Origin: Pycnococcus provasolii
Taxonomy: Eukaryota; Chlorophyta; Pseudoscourfieldiophyceae; Pseudoscourfieldiales; Pycnococcaceae
DNA: 64,000 nucleotides
Assembly: GCA_938743325.2 (NCBI GenBank)
Contig: OW568861.1
Coordinates: forward strand, 62,001 to 126,000
Reading direction: 5' to 3'
Shown: piece after piece, positions 2,374 through 56,717 of the stretch
Layout: the number at the start of each line of letters is the position of its first letter
Numbering within the stretch: the first letter of the stretch is position 1
The notes under the pieces: generated by a model
What the model was told of the DNA's origin: nothing
The model's input: the letters and a program-made list of their open reading frames with translations, nothing else
Database searches by the model: none
Made by a program: the position numbers and the translations under genes

Positions 2374-2915
2374 GAGAGTAGAGTAGAGTAGACCGGCTGA
2401 AAAGGGACCCGTGGAGTGCAGAATGAGGCGGATGAAAGGAGACGAAATGGAAGTTGGAGGGTGCTAAAACCAACACACCAGCGCACCTGCACCTGCGGTC
2501 GGAGAGCTTGAAAACAGCCTGTTCAAAAGAAATCCAACATCCAACATCCAAGGGGGAGATCCTGTCACATCCCATTTGGAGCCAACCGTCGGGAGGGGAG
2601 GGCCCCTGGCTGCCTGGGCTTATTAGGGTGTAGGGTTAGGGTGTAGGGTTAGGGTTAGGGTTAGGGTTAGGGTTAGGGTTAGGGTTAGGAAGGCCTGGCG
2701 TGCCGTTTTCCCTCTGCCCCTCTCCCCTGACTGAACCCTTCCTCTCCTCTCGGCTCCCCCTCTCTGCCCCGACGAGGCCCAGGGTGCAAATTCCTTGTCC
2801 CCCGCCCTGTGTTCCCGCACTCGGCTAACCCGCGCCTTCCCTTCCCTTCCCTTCCCTTCCCTCCCTTCCCCTCCCCCTCTCTGCCCCCATCCAAGTTCCA
2901 CCAACCCGGCGCCTC
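2374..2915. promoter_or_regulatory. divergent intergenic region with TTAGGG array and CCCTT tract
   Basis: Shared upstream region of PTOX (leftward) and the GH47 mannosidase (rightward). It holds a TTAGGG array at 2622-2690 and a pyrimidine tract of CCCTT units at about 2838-2880. No convincing gene is present; open frames here are products of low-complexity sequence. Confidence 0.5.
2622..2690 (+). repeat. TTAGGG array
   Basis: Two degenerate units (TTAGGGTG, TAGGG) followed by about eight TTAGGG hexamers. It ends 226 bases before the GH47 start codon and has TTAGGG on that gene's coding strand. Genes on both sides rule out a chromosome end at this place. Confidence 0.9.
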
Positions 2916-5141
2916 ATGGCCGCGCAACCTCAGTCGCCCGCAAGGCAACACCCAACCTCGCACGCGGACTCCGCCATACCAGCGGGATGGCAGAGGCACG
3001 TGCTCGGCGCAGGGAACAACGACGCAGCCTCGAGGGACTTGGGAGTAACGGCGGCCGCAGCGCCGCCGGCAGCCTACGACGCCGTCAACAACGCCTTCAA
3101 CGACGACCTGGAAAGAGGAACGTGGGGCGCAAGGTCGGCGTCATCCAGGCGGAGAACGGCGGCGTCAAGGCGGCCCAGCGCACTAGGAGGATCGTCGTCG
3201 AGAAAAAGATACGCAAGCAGAACGGACGCCAACTGGCCAAGATGGGCGCTGCTCGTCATCATCATGTACGCCGTCTACAGGTTCCAGTCGAGAAGCTCAA
3301 ACGCGAGACAGCAAACAAATGCCAACACGCAACCGCCAACCAAGTCGTCGTCTCTGCTCGCCATCGCACTCAACGCAGAAGAGGCCACCGACACGCAGCT
3401 CGCAGACGTCACGAGGGATACGCTGCTCATGGCCAAACAGGTGGCGAAAGAGGCCAAGGAACTCGCCGATGTCGCGGCGCGCAAAAACGGCGCCGATAGC
3501 GGAAGGCCAGACTCCGAGTCAGCTGCAACGCGCGCGACGACACTCTGGCGTCCTCCGAAAAAGGATCCGCAGTTGGTGCAGCAGTTGATGAAGAATCCCA
3601 CGCCGACGACGACCAGAACGCCGCCGACGACGACGACGCGCGCACCTCGCGAGTGGAGGAGTCAGCCTTCGCAGAGGAGGTGGTCTCGCGACCCACGCGG
3701 CGAGATGCCCAACGACGCGGATGCCGAAACTAGAAGGCAAGCTGTGAAAGATGCCATGAGCCACGCGTGGCGCGGGTACGAGACGTACGCGTTCGGCTTC
3801 GACGAACTCATGCCACTGTCAAGGAAAGGCAAGAACATGTTCGCGGGAACGGGCGCGACCATCATAGACAGTCTTGACACGCTGTGGTTGATGGGCTTGA
3901 CGAAAGAATTCGAGAAAGCGCGCGACTGGGTCGCGACAAGCCTCAAATTTGACTATGCCGGCGATACGAGCGTCTTCGAGACGACGATCCGCGTGCTCGG
4001 TGGACTCATGAGCGCGTACGACCTTGCCGGCGACAGCATGTTCCTCGAGAAGGCTGCAGATCTCGCCGACAAGATGAAGGCTGCCTTCGAAACACCCACG
4101 GGAATTCCGAGGAACATGATCAACTTTAAAACGGGCAAGGCGCGCGCTCCGCCGTGGGTCAGAGGACAGAGCGTGCTTGCTGAGTTTGGCACCGAGCAGC
4201 TCGAGTGGATCGCACTCAGCGATCGCACGGGTGATCCGAGCTACGCCGAGCTGGTGCGCCGCTCGATGTCGACTGTTGTCGACACTGCCATCCAGAATTC
4301 CATCGGGCTCGTTCCTCTGTACATCGACCCAAACACTGGGAAGTTTGGACAGCCACACATATCGTTCGGGGCGATGGGCGACTCGTTTTACGAGTACCTG
4401 CTGAAGATGTTCGTGCAGGGCGGGCTCGACGGCTCAGATCGCAAGTTCTACGAGTACTGGATCATCACGATGGACCAGATGATTGACAGGCTGACGCGCA
4501 AGACGACTCCCAGCGGTTGGTGGTACGTCGACGAGTGGAGGGGACATCTCATGAAGAAGATGGACCACCTGGTGTGCTTCGTTCCGGGCATGCTCGCGCT
4601 CAGCCTGATCACCATACCGGAAGGTCTTGACGACGCGCTCGACTCCAGGCGCGCTCGATACCTCGAGGCTGCGGAGAATATCGCAGAGTTCTGCTATCGC
4701 ATGTACGACCGCCAGCCCACGGGCCTTGCGCCGGAGTACGTCAAGATTGTCGACGGCCAAGACTTCATCCCTGGCGTGCCCGTCAATCTGCTTCGGCCGG
4801 AAACCGTCGAGAGCATGATGCTGCTGTGGAGGCTGACGAAAAAGCAGCGGTACCGCGACTGGGGCTGGGCCATTTTCATGGCCTTTGAGAGGCACTGCCG
4901 CGCCGACGTCGGGTACAGCGGAGTTAAGGACGTTCGCCGTGTGCCGCCGCAGAAGGATGACACGATGCAGAGCTTCTTTCTCGCTGAGACGCTCAAGTAC
5001 CTTTACCTGCTTTTCTCGCCCGACGACGTCGTGCCGCTCGACGAATGGGTGTTCAACACGGAAGCGCACCCAATCAGAATACACAGGCCGGATAGTCGAG
5101 GTCAAGACGACGACAGGCGACGACGGCAGCAGCAGGCTTGA
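2916..5141 (+). CDS. class I alpha-1,2-mannosidase (GH47), type II membrane protein
   Basis: Trims alpha-1,2-linked mannose from N-glycans in the ER/Golgi. The layout is a basic, Ser/Arg-rich cytosolic N-terminus, a single membrane anchor at residues about 107-123 (W-P-R-W-A-L-L-V-I-I-M-Y-A-V-Y), a Thr/Pro-rich stem, then the GH47 (alpha/alpha)7 domain from about residue 275 to 715. Recognisable GH47 blocks are D-S-L-D-T-L-W-L-M-G, F-G-A-M-G-D-S-F-Y-E-Y-L-L-K, L-R-P-E-T-V-E-S, and the terminal F-N-T-E-A-H-P, whose Thr coordinates calcium in the family. The ATG at 2916 is the first in frame after the CCCTT tract. The family is sure; ER mannosidase I versus Golgi mannosidase I is not resolved. 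It converges with the Nudix gene, 58 bases apart. Confidence 0.93.
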   Translation: MAAQPQSPARQHPTSHADSAIPAGWQRHVLGAGNNDAASRDLGVTAAAAPPAAYDAVNNAFNDDLERGTWGARSASSRRRTAASRRPSALGGSSSRKRYASRTDANWPRWALLVIIMYAVYRFQSRSSNARQQTNANTQPPTKSSSLLAIALNAEEATDTQLADVTRDTLLMAKQVAKEAKELADVAARKNGADSGRPDSESAATRATTLWRPPKKDPQLVQQLMKNPTPTTTRTPPTTTTRAPREWRSQPSQRRWSRDPRGEMPNDADAETRRQAVKDAMSHAWRGYETYAFGFDELMPLSRKGKNMFAGTGATIIDSLDTLWLMGLTKEFEKARDWVATSLKFDYAGDTSVFETTIRVLGGLMSAYDLAGDSMFLEKAADLADKMKAAFETPTGIPRNMINFKTGKARAPPWVRGQSVLAEFGTEQLEWIALSDRTGDPSYAELVRRSMSTVVDTAIQNSIGLVPLYIDPNTGKFGQPHISFGAMGDSFYEYLLKMFVQGGLDGSDRKFYEYWIITMDQMIDRLTRKTTPSGWWYVDEWRGHLMKKMDHLVCFVPGMLALSLITIPEGLDDALDSRRARYLEAAENIAEFCYRMYDRQPTGLAPEYVKIVDGQDFIPGVPVNLLRPETVESMMLLWRLTKKQRYRDWGWAIFMAFERHCRADVGYSGVKDVRRVPPQKDDTMQSFFLAETLKYLYLLFSPDDVVPLDEWVFNTEAHPIRIHRPDSRGQDDDRRRRQQQA

Positions 5142-52827: not shown

Positions 52828-53083
52828 GAGGGTGTGCTTATTTAAGTACTACTACTGTATGCTCACTTGTGCGACTTGAAAATTGGAGCGAGTTCGAGCG
52901 GAGGGAAAACCGAAAAAGAAGCCCGGGGCAACAACGAAATGAAAATTTTGAGTCCTGATGAGAACCCCTTCCTTCTCTGGCAAGCCTAAGTAGGTGGGCA
53001 ACGCGGGAGAGGACTCAGAGGTGAGGAGACCCCCTTCCAACCCAACCCCGGGCTGCCGGTGGTTCTGGTCGGCCCTCCCCTTC

Positions 53084-53193
53084 CCAGCCCTCCTCCCTCT
53101 TCCCAGCCCTCCTCCCTCTTCCCAGCCCTCCTCCCTCTTCCCAGCCCTCCTCCCTCTTCCCAGCCCTCCTCCCTCTTCCCAGCCCTCCTCCCT
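53084..53193. repeat. 19-bp tandem repeat
   Basis: About six copies of CCCAGCCCTCCTCCCTCTT, almost identical. Confidence 0.92.
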
Positions 53194-53399
53194 CAAACTG
53201 TGGCGTCGTCGTAGGTACGCTCATGCCTTTCCGGCAGTTTGCTTGCTTTTGCCTTCCACTTGTTGTCTTGCATTTGCGCTGTGGGTGGTGTGCGTGTCTT
53301 GCTTTGCGGAAGGCCTTTCGCCTTGCGCATGAACGGGGAAACGCGTGTGGTGCGAGTGCAAAGCGTGCGAGTGAAAAGCATGAGTACTTGCCGGCGACG

Positions 53400-53731
53400 G
53401 TGCGGCTCGCACCATGCTTTTCATGGCGTGGCGGGCACGCGCGCGCCACCGTCTTGGCCAACAAACCGTGCCGCGCGTCAGTGAGAGGACGAGGAGAGTG
53501 ATGCGCGCGCATGGTGGCGTCGTCCGTGTCCTCGTCGTCGTCGTCGACATCATCGTGTTGCTTAAGGTGTTGCTTAAGGTGTGCGGCTCGCATGCCTGTC
53601 ATGGCGTGGCGGGCACGCGCGCGCCACCGTCTTGGCCAACAAGCCGTGCCGCGCGTCAGTGAGAGGACGAGGAGAGTGATGCGCGCGCATGGTGGCGTCG
53701 TCCGTGTCCTCGTCGTCGTCGACATCATCGT
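53400..53731. repeat. direct duplication, period 181 bp
   Basis: Copy A 53400-53553 and copy B 53581-53731 share GGCGTGGCGGGCACGCGCGC and most of the following 130 bases, with few differences (AACAAACC versus AACAAGCC). A doubled GTTGCTTAAGGT lies between them. Confidence 0.9.
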
Positions 53732-53999
53732 CCTCGTCACAAAACTCTTTTTTTTTTTTCAAACCACTCACACGCACTCACGCACATACACACGCGCGCG
53801 CACGTACATAAACAAAAAGAATAGGATGGGGCTTACGCACCAAAACGCGGTCAAACATGGCCGAAAGGTCGTAAGCCCATGCTGACTCACTACGACAATA
53901 CTGCAATGATATTACAGCACTACTTCGTGATCACTCCCGCTCCCGCTCCCGCTCCCGCCTGCACCGCATCTTCATCGTCACTGAGCAAGCCGCTGCCGC

Positions 54000-54797
54000 T
54001 CACGATGCCGCTGGAGGAGGCGGCGGAGGCACGCTAGGCACGCTGCAGATACGGCACCGAGTCCTGCGGCTGCCATGCTCGCAGAACGACTGCGGAGAGC
54101 AGACACGGCAGGTACTCCTCATGATGTCATGCTCGCAGAACGACTGCGGAGAGCAAACACGGCAGGTACTCCTGCGGATGTTATGCTCGCAGATCGACCC
54201 GCCTCCGCAGATACGGCACTGAGTCCTGCGGATGTCATGCTCGCAGAACAACTGCGGAGCGCAGACACGGCAGTCAAACCTGTGGATGCCATGCTCGCAG
54301 AGTGCATACTGTGACGGCAAAGTTGGCTCGACTCCTGGTACTGTGCAGTGAACTGTACGGTTGAGCACACCGTGTAGCACTGCGAGTCCGTGCAGTGTCG
54401 CCTCGCAAGACGCGCACATGTTGCGTGAGACGAAGAACACCAAACCTTCAAGAGGTGTGCTTTCAGCGAGCAGGCGCCCTAGCGCCACGTCCTCAGCGTG
54501 CTCGCCAGGTTCGACGCCAGTGTTCTTGACGGTAAAGAGCACGCTCGCTCCTCCCACAACATCCGCAACCGCACGCTCGATGAAAGCATTGAACAGCGCG
54601 GGCTCTCTGTGAGCGCGAGTGACGACGTCTGCTGGCATCTCGCCCTCCTGACGAGCATTGTCGAATGCGTCGTCGCCCGCGCTCAGGCTTATGGATGCGA
54701 TCGCGATCGGATGTGCGTGCATTCGCACCACACTCACCGTGGTCCCAGACGAGAACATCGATGCACCGCTCGCACTCCTTGTCGTCACCCTTGGCAT
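54000..54797 (-). CDS. putative zinc-dependent deaminase-fold protein with tandem CEH repeats
   Basis: 265 residues. The N-terminal 150 residues carry H100-A-E102 at the head of a helix (G-E-H-A-E-D-V-A-L-G-R-L-L) and C128-x2-C131 (S-R-N-M-C-A-S-C-E-A-T-L) after a hydrophobic strand. This H-x-E...C-x2-C order and spacing is that of the cytidine/nucleic-acid deaminase fold, with Glu as proton shuttle. From C167 there are five 18-residue repeats of the form C-E-H-x3-R-x2-C-R-x-C (nt 54042-54299); their Cys/His could bind zinc. The tail is Pro-rich. There is no signal peptide. The domain call is mine from motifs and is moderately sure; the substrate is unknown. TTACA at 53912-53916 gives a TGTAA signal. 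Confidence 0.6.
   Translation of the reverse strand: MPRVTTRSASGASMFSSGTTVSVVRMHAHPIAIASISLSAGDDAFDNARQEGEMPADVVTRAHREPALFNAFIERAVADVVGGASVLFTVKNTGVEPGEHAEDVALGRLLAESTPLEGLVFFVSRNMCASCEATLHGLAVLHGVLNRTVHCTVPGVEPTLPSQYALCEHGIHRFDCRVCAPQLFCEHDIRRTQCRICGGGSICEHNIRRSTCRVCSPQSFCEHDIMRSTCRVCSPQSFCEHGSRRTRCRICSVPSVPPPPPPAAS
54042..54299 (-). repeat. five 54-bp in-frame repeats (CEH units)
   Basis: Tandem 54-bp units, each coding for one C-E-H-x3-R-x2-C-R-x-C repeat; neighbouring units are close in DNA sequence. Confidence 0.9.
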
Positions 54798-54836
54798 GTT
54801 GATGACAGTAACTAATTGGTAAAAAAAAAAATTCCA

Positions 54837-54883
54837 GGTTAGGGTTTCAGGGAAGTGGGTTAGGGTTCAGGTTAGGGTTAGGT
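54837..54883 (+). repeat. degenerate TTAGGG cluster upstream of the deaminase-like gene
   Basis: Four to five GGTTAGGG units with spacers. It lies 40 bases upstream of the deaminase-like ATG but in reverse orientation to that gene. Confidence 0.8.
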
Positions 54884-55070
54884 GGTAATGTCGATTTTAG
54901 GGGTTAGGAGTTTGGGGGTTTGTGCTGTGAGTTATTTTAGGGGTTTGGATTTGGGGGTGAAAAAACAAAAAAAAAGTAACGGCAATACAGCACGCGCGCT
55001 TCATCATGCGCGCATTCATGCACGCGCATGGCGCGCGCGCACCCACCCACCCACGCACACGCACGCACAG

Positions 55071-55071
<1 letters not shown>

Positions 55072-55119
<48 letters not shown>

Positions 55120-55121
55120 AA

Positions 55122-55152
<31 letters not shown>

Positions 55153-55160
55153 AAAAACAC
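55072..55160. repeat. CA dinucleotide microsatellite
   Basis: Long CA run broken by two A tracts. Confidence 0.95.
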
Positions 55161-55676
55161 AAAAGTGAAACGCACGCGCGCATCCTCCCACCACCATGCC
55201 ATGCGCGCGTGCATGCGCGCGTGCATTGCACGCGCGCATGGCTGACCACCCGCGCACAACCCACCCACCCTACAAACAGAACGCCATCGCCACATCAAAC
55301 CTCCCCACCACCCACGTACCTCAAAAGTTCCGAAGGCAGAATTGCAGAGAATGAATGTGAAGAGACCTGTCTTTTTTTGATGCAGGTCAGCCCCTTCCGG
55401 CCACCTTTAATTAGGCCCTGATTCAGGCGAAAAACGTCTTTAATTAGGCCCTAGGGCATAATTAAAGACTTTAGTTATGGGGTCAGTTTGGTCGCAGATT
55501 TTGCGAAGGACGCGAGTTTGGGGGTTTGCCGGGGTGCGCCAGGCGCTCAGTGCTGACAACACCACCACCACTGCCACTGGCGCTTTACATTCAGCGGAAC
55601 GCCTGGCGGCGCGCACAGCCAGGACGCAGTACGACAGGACCGAGGTGTGCGGGCAGTGCCCTGCCGACGCAGCGTG

Positions 55677-55922
55677 ATGGTCAACGTCGACGACGACACG
55701 GACAACTCCGTGGTCGTCACCACCTCGACCTTGCGCGGAGGCTTGGAAGGACATCTGCAGTGCCATGTGCAGTGCCAAGGGGCGAACAAGCAGGGCTTCA
55801 CCCACGCGTTCGTACCGACGAATCCGAACGCCACAGGCAAGCGGTTCACGGCAACGACACGGCCATGTGTCGTCATCACCGAGGAGTTCGAGAAGGCCTG
55901 CAAGCGTCGGCATGGACACTGA
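55677..55922 (+). CDS. short frame sharing its N-terminus with the ZIP frame
   Basis: 81 codons, product not recognised. It begins M-V-N-V-D-D-D-T-D-N-S-V-V-V, nearly the same peptide as the start of the ZIP frame downstream, because a 47-bp segment occurs at both 55685 and 55930. Its TGA overlaps the ATG of the ZIP frame (TGATG). It may be a captured or duplicated 5' end rather than a functional gene. Confidence 0.3.
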   Translation: MVNVDDDTDNSVVVTTSTLRGGLEGHLQCHVQCQGANKQGFTHAFVPTNPNATGKRFTATTRPCVVITEEFEKACKRRHGH

Positions 55923-56717
55923 TGCGCGACGTCGACGACGACACGGACAACTCCGTGGTCGTCCCCACCTCGACCTCAATGATCGACATGGCCGTCGCGC
56001 ACGCACACGCACACCAGCTCAACCGCCAAAAGCAAGCAGCTGACGACGTCGACTTTGGAACGATGACCATCGTCGTGCTCGCCATGGCGCTCTTCGCGGG
56101 TCTAGGCGTTCTGCCGCTGTACGTCGCAAAGGTGGACGCCACGTGGGAAGGACCAGGACTCGCCGTGGCGTGCGGCATGATGCTTGCCGCCTCGTTCGAC
56201 CTGCTCGAGGATGGGTCGAACGGAAACGCGCTTGGGACGACTCTGCCATATCTCGGAAACGCGGGAAGTCACAAGGTGGCATTGCTCGTAGGTGCGCTCT
56301 TGGGAATCGCCACCATGGGTTCCGTGAAGCGTTTCTTCTCGGGCAACGGCGACGACGGCGACGACGACGACGACGACGCAGCCAGGCAGATCGTCAAGGC
56401 GCTCAACGCTGCGGGCATGGGAAACACAAAGGACGATCTTTGCCAAGGACCAGGGCAGAGAGAGGAGCTGAGTAAAGCCAAGCAGGTGCAGTGCTTGCTG
56501 TACTTGCTCGTCTGCCTGTGACTTGCTCGTCTGCCTGTGCATACACAGCGGCGAGGGTATCTCCATGGGTGTCGCATTCAAGGCGGAGAGGGGATGGCAA
56601 CAAGGCGTGCGTGTAGCCTTCAGCATGGGCTTGCATAACGCGTGCGAAGGACTCGCCATCGCGCTCGTGCTCACCAGCCCGCCTGGCTCAAACGAATTGA
56701 CTGACCCAACCCAATAG
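55922..56717 (+). pseudogene. ZIP-family metal transporter, broken by a 19-bp tandem duplication
   Basis: ZIP transporters carry Zn2+ and related ions into the cytosol. Seen: an N-terminal His-rich segment (A-H-A-H-A-H), TM1 (T-M-T-I-V-V-L-A-M-A-L-F-A-G-L-G), TM2 and TM3, an acidic loop with an Asp run, then TM4 with the metal motif H-S-G-E-G and TM5 with H-N-A-C-E-G-L-A. The TM4 segment is interrupted: ACTTGCTCGTCTGCCTGTG occurs twice in tandem (56502-56520 and 56521-56539), which puts a stop in frame and shifts the rest. Without the second copy the frame would continue through TM4. The downstream part ends at 56717 after TM5, so TM6-8 are also missing. Both faults indicate a decayed or truncated copy. 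Confidence 0.75.
56502..56539 (+). repeat. 19-bp tandem duplication inside ZIP
   Basis: Two exact adjacent copies of ACTTGCTCGTCTGCCTGTG; the junction creates TGA in the reading frame. Confidence 0.95.

Follow-up and report, generated by a model that had tools for sequence, protein, structure and literature searches.

Does an open reading frame (ORF) in which the motifs of a deaminase are followed by a row of small Cys/His repeats encode an unusual deaminase? The question is raised by a 265-residue ORF in a 64,000-nucleotide stretch of the genome of the green alga Pycnococcus provasolii (the window, whose numbering is used for ORF and domain coordinates), which a first-pass annotation had read as a putative deaminase fused to five zinc-type repeats. 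We searched the genome in which it lies (32.3 Mb, 46 contigs; C1 is the contig holding the window copy) and find the motifs, the repeats and their fusion in three intact copies and one diverged fragment. The explanation that we prefer, with a probability of roughly 0.6, is a zinc-dependent, lineage-specific enzyme that has the cytidine-deaminase fold and carries an array of mini zinc knuckles of the CCHC type.

Motifs and repeats of the ORF

The ORF runs from ATG to TGA at 54000..54797 on the minus strand, as do all its features given here; it has paralogues in frame and is a real protein-coding gene. Residues 1–165 (54303..54797) make up the deaminase-like domain, recognized by sub-threshold Pfam matches and by hhalign. 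Within it lies H100-A101-E102 (in HAEDVAL; 54492..54500), a predicted zinc ligand and catalytic Glu that is kept in the C31, C29 and C27 copies. The predicted zinc ligands of C128-A-S-C131 (54405..54416; the C31 and C37 copies read CAFC) follow after a gap of 25 residues between E102 and C128, and the numbering first given for both motifs is exact. Organelle-targeting peptides are often rich in Ser, Thr and Ala and lack acidic residues; residues 1–41 (54675..54797), with 9 Ser, 4 Thr, 6 Ala, 3 Arg and no Asp, Glu or Lys, may have a composition of this kind.

The five 18-residue Cys/His repeats of the first reading were recovered as five exact CEH units of the form C-x-H-x6-C-x2-C (54030..54299), which start at residues 167, 185, 203, 221 and 239 and are thus spaced by exactly 18. 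When the sequence from residue 166 on was shuffled, five units occurred in none of 20,000 shuffles, the maximum being two. The intact copies carry five (C1), seven (C31) and six (C29) repeats. In all 18 units, positions 1 (C), 3 (H), 7 (R), 10 (C), 11 (R) and 13 (C) are invariant, and positions 4, 5, 6, 8 and 9 vary. The presence of four ligands in every unit suggests that each would bind one zinc.

In this genome the CEH repeat extends beyond the deaminase-like copies and forms a wider family. A four-unit query finds 18 places (several counted per gene), including a 550-residue ORF on C34 (locus L012, C34:266500-273500; 2683-4332, minus strand) with 19 units at exact 18-residue spacing and a short ORF with two units at C31:387000-393000. 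Both share with the window ORF the 18-residue CxHx6CxxC unit and similar linkers. The C34 ORF differs in consisting of repeats alone, with no deaminase found by the Pfam scan (E up to 1) or seen by eye. Outside this genome, the four-unit query had no match in phages, a search of viral contigs for the repeat alone gave 11 stretches, none confirmed, and the PDB sequence search of the protein gave four matches, all to the repeats (E 1.4–6.4).

The fold of residues 1–165

Deaminase-fold proteins are tabulated with the motifs [HCD]xE and CxxC (PMC3482391), and a kinetoplastid member is described as having 24–36 residues between the motifs and a Pro before CxxC (PMC12064671). The window domain has HxE and CxxC, with M127 where the Pro would stand.

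When the domain alone was compared with Pfam, the two best families were both deaminases, PF00383 (dCMP_cyt_deam_1; E 0.084, residues 90–136) and PF14437 (MafB19-like deaminase; E 0.10, residues 90–133), followed by an unrelated third family at E 0.15; with the whole protein PF14437 stood at E 0.41. Their scores, 13.2 bits for PF00383 and 11 to 12.9 bits for PF14437, lie below the curated cut-offs of 25 and 27 bits, respectively. PF00383 itself matches nine places in the genome (presumably dCMP, cytidine, RibD and tRNA deaminase types among them, judging from their motifs) and PF14437 seven, and the family with CEH repeats is absent from both lists. The genome also holds a Bd3614-like deaminase, here in an algal nuclear genome (L060, C25:440755-441024; PF14439, E 2.2e-24).

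Seven of the genome's own deaminases were trimmed and aligned; the Tad3-like L061 was excluded because it has a long insertion, and L062 is another exon-like match next to L058. Aligned to these seven by hhalign, the family gave P 6.6e-4 and a probability of 27%, with both motifs aligned. A hidden Markov model (HMM) of the seven scores the window core at 13.0 bits, a value matched by 0 of 3000 full shuffles and by 40 of 3000 that kept the motifs; for hhalign with a single sequence, the corresponding counts were 0 of 300 and 16 of 300. In a set of 911 distinct ORFs, read from stop to stop and 100 codons or longer, 15 reach 5 bits with this HMM. The top eight are own deaminases (seven in the HMM), then comes one ORF in the deaminase locus L058 (12.1), and the three family copies are next at 11.4, 11.2 and 9.9 bits, all others having 8.5 and less.

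Structure prediction, which the first-pass annotation had proposed as a check, gave a divided answer. The unaided AlphaFold model is poor, although it starts a helix at each of the two motifs, where deaminases also have one. The rows listed for it, among them lipases and acetyl-CoA carboxylase domains, are unrelated and were not used to argue for any fold. In a model aided by an alignment that included the genome's own deaminases, and which is therefore partly circular, all 50 listed structural rows have the deaminase fold, several of the best being cytidine, guanine, guanosine and dCMP deaminases. In a viral structure library the first rows for this aided model include proteins of phages and one algal virus that are named as deaminases (best E 0.019). 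Two results weigh against a deaminase: no deaminase family reaches its curated cut-off in the Pfam and NCBIfam scans, and the unaided model is of low confidence with no deaminase among its listed rows. The motif set, its order and spacing and the fusion to repeats stand as first described, the fold is less secure, and residues 1–165 are probably a deaminase domain.

Copies, selection and surroundings

A search of the genome with residues 1–165 gave nine matches at E up to 10, and one with the whole protein gave 17, including repeat-only places and multiple matches per gene. Besides the window copy, two intact copies lie at C31:278204-279097 and C29:574253-575104, with 93% and 90% identity to it in the best match, and both keep the reading frame. 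Homologues without the H, E, C and C residues, which would have spoken against the deaminase reading, did not turn up: both intact copies keep all four. Two loci hold diverged pieces, C37 with the CxxC half and, immediately after it, a single CQH repeat, and C27 with the HAE half; each keeps the motif of its half, and the other half was not seen at either locus. Shorter pieces of the domain occur at C31:530977 and C13:769165, and matches at C29:425097 (E 0.009) and C42 (E 0.67) were taken, without proof, as chance. The family has recently been copied, is changing its repeat number and is decaying, and so provides a concrete case of a deaminase-like family multiplying and breaking up within one algal genome. 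A piece of the family's N-terminal half in locus L013 (C31:527500-534500; 3478-4037, plus strand) overlaps a LAGLIDADG homing endonuclease-like ORF (PF14528, E 0.0032, below the cut-off).

The older splits tell of selection on the domain. Over 38 codons around CxxC, the C37 and C1 sequences show 2 differences at first, 3 at second and 15 at third codon positions (nonsynonymous divergence dN 0.087, synonymous divergence dS 0.70, p 4e-5), and because these differences fall mostly at third positions the CxxC region was under purifying selection. Over 28 codons around HAE, C27 and C1 differ at 8 first, 9 second and 19 third positions, with synonymous sites saturated. Selection therefore maintained the core before the recent duplications. 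The CQH repeat stands directly after the C37 domain, so the fusion of domain and repeat is older than the split of C37 and C1. Among the three intact copies, all 10 variable sites in codons 1–162 are non-synonymous; we do not claim positive selection firmly, because 0 of 10 changed sites being synonymous has P 0.05 under equal rates.

All three intact copies sit inside one segmental duplication, a unit of about 3.6 kb that spans 53056..56678 in the window (the C29 match starts at 53119). Its positions 55635-56634, 1000 bases that include most of a ZIP-like gene, are identical in all three copy pairs; the ORF differs. The interval 53400-53740 holds about 150 bases twice in tandem, and the C29 copy has 76 and 103 gap columns there relative to C1. 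The pieces of the ZIP-transporter-like gene (55928..56714, plus strand) are divergent to the ORF and are matched in the C31 and C29 segments only up to 56678, so this gene is cut by the duplication border. It is the "broken transporter" noted earlier: the 55-residue piece at 56550-56714 matches PF02535 at only E 0.22, the 197-residue upstream piece at 55928-56518 has no ZIP match in the Pfam scan, and beyond that the ZIP-like label is our assumption. Directly upstream of the ATG, telomere-like TTAGGG (CCCTAA-like) repeats at 54839-54900 hold AAACCCTAA (54839..54847, minus strand), which we take to be telo-box-like.

In the whole genome the light-harvesting family PF00504 is matched 51 times, as befits an alga, and for one of these proteins the best PDB matches are LHCI and chloroplast chlorophyll a-b binding proteins, which probably points to the green lineage. 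Two clusters on C31 (133072-142609 and 360395-366434) contain six such matches each with identical scores, which suggests very recent amplification or conversion.

Rival readings and comparison with known systems

In the deaminase that we favor, H100, C128 and C131 would hold the catalytic zinc and E102 would shuttle protons to attack the amino group of the base. Nucleic acid presenting this base would be bound by the C-terminal array, whose five to seven zinc modules, each of 18 residues, have fixed Arg and variable loop residues. Organelle RNA editing is a possible role because the N-terminus resembles a targeting peptide, and attack on foreign or mobile nucleic acid is another, one that fits the duplication, copy decay and change in repeat number. 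More speculatively, and we think this improbable, the array might be a repeat guide unrelated to that of PPR-DYW proteins, in which its length (5, 6 or 7) and loop positions 4–6, 8 and 9 set the edited RNA or DNA site, possibly in an organelle, with the copies diversifying by repeat gain, loss and exchange.

Of the alternatives, we regard as unlikely, but less so than the others, a deaminase fold that has become a pseudo-enzyme or zinc scaffold while the CEH array does the work. M127 at the place of the usual Pro, S130F inside the CxxC of one intact copy and the wholly non-synonymous variation in codons 1–162 agree with it; the strong purifying selection around CxxC in the older split argues the other way, as does the fact that H, E, C and C persist in every intact copy and in those parts of the two diverged pieces that cover them. 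That an unrelated lineage-specific domain should contain HAE and CxxC by chance is harder still to accept. The low AlphaFold confidence, the unaided rows listed without a deaminase, the sub-threshold profile scores and the absence of the family from the PF00383 and PF14437 lists would suit such a domain, but they have to be set against the Pfam, hhalign, shuffle and HMM-ranking/selection results taken together and against predicted helices that start, deaminase-like, at each motif. Least probable to us is an enzyme acting on free nucleotides or nucleosides, like dCMP, cytidine or guanine deaminases, with repeats for oligomerization or protein contacts. Variable arrays of zinc modules with Arg are in general more usual among nucleic-acid binders, and the genome already has its nine PF00383 places, even though PF00383 is the best Pfam match of the domain, cytidine, guanine, guanosine and dCMP deaminases are among the best aided-model rows, and a kinetoplastid CCCH deaminase-like protein reportedly modulates the pools of pyrimidine nucleotides (PMC12064671).

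Searches elsewhere found no counterpart of the fusion. With tblastn the whole protein had no match in phages, and residues 1–166 had four chance-level matches in plasmids (E 6–9). Peptide patterns gave 2 and 7 stretches in viral contigs, none confirmed, and the HAEDVAL..CxxCE pattern gave none there; in prokaryote genomes, searched with that pattern only, one match was judged chance, its 506-codon frame lying opposite a longer open frame of 820 codons. PHROGs and NCBIfam have no match for the window protein. Among the defence families of PADLOC, the window copy matched only a type I specificity subunit (E 0.024), and the C31 copy matched none. A deaminase with tandem CEH knuckles was met neither in Pfam, NCBIfam, PHROGs or PADLOC nor in the open-licence literature searched, whose coverage is thin. 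Relatives in other algae may well exist, since this is the sole eukaryotic genome searched.

The deaminases of PF00383 and PF14437 (TadA/Tad2, dCMP deaminase and toxin deaminases) share with the window domain the HxE–25 residues–CxxC arrangement in its strand-helix context. The window domain differs in having Met where Pro would precede CxxC, probably four extra residues after CxxC compared with several own-genome deaminases, an N-terminal half not matched to those families and scores below their curated cut-offs. The DYW-type PPR deaminases of plant organelles, whose features, like those of the AID/APOBEC family, are used here as general background, likewise combine a deaminase with an array of short repeats, and the window protein has an N-terminus that may be of the organelle-targeting kind. 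However, its modules are zinc-type and 18 residues long, its array comes after the deaminase, and no PPR or DYW family is among its Pfam matches. The kinetoplastid CDA-like protein resembles it in fusing a deaminase domain to a Cys/His zinc motif; that protein is described with CxE rather than HxE, a C-terminal deaminase and a different CCCH finger spacing, and the accessible part of the report mentions no tandem array (PMC12064671). Known deaminases thus include some that carry repeat arrays and some that carry a zinc finger, and the fusion to tandem CEH knuckles is unmatched in the collections searched. If the domain deaminates nucleic acid, this would be an algal editing or mutator enzyme in which a compact, modular zinc array takes the place of PPR repeats. 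Such a protein would choose its target by means of a new architecture and might supply small editing modules.
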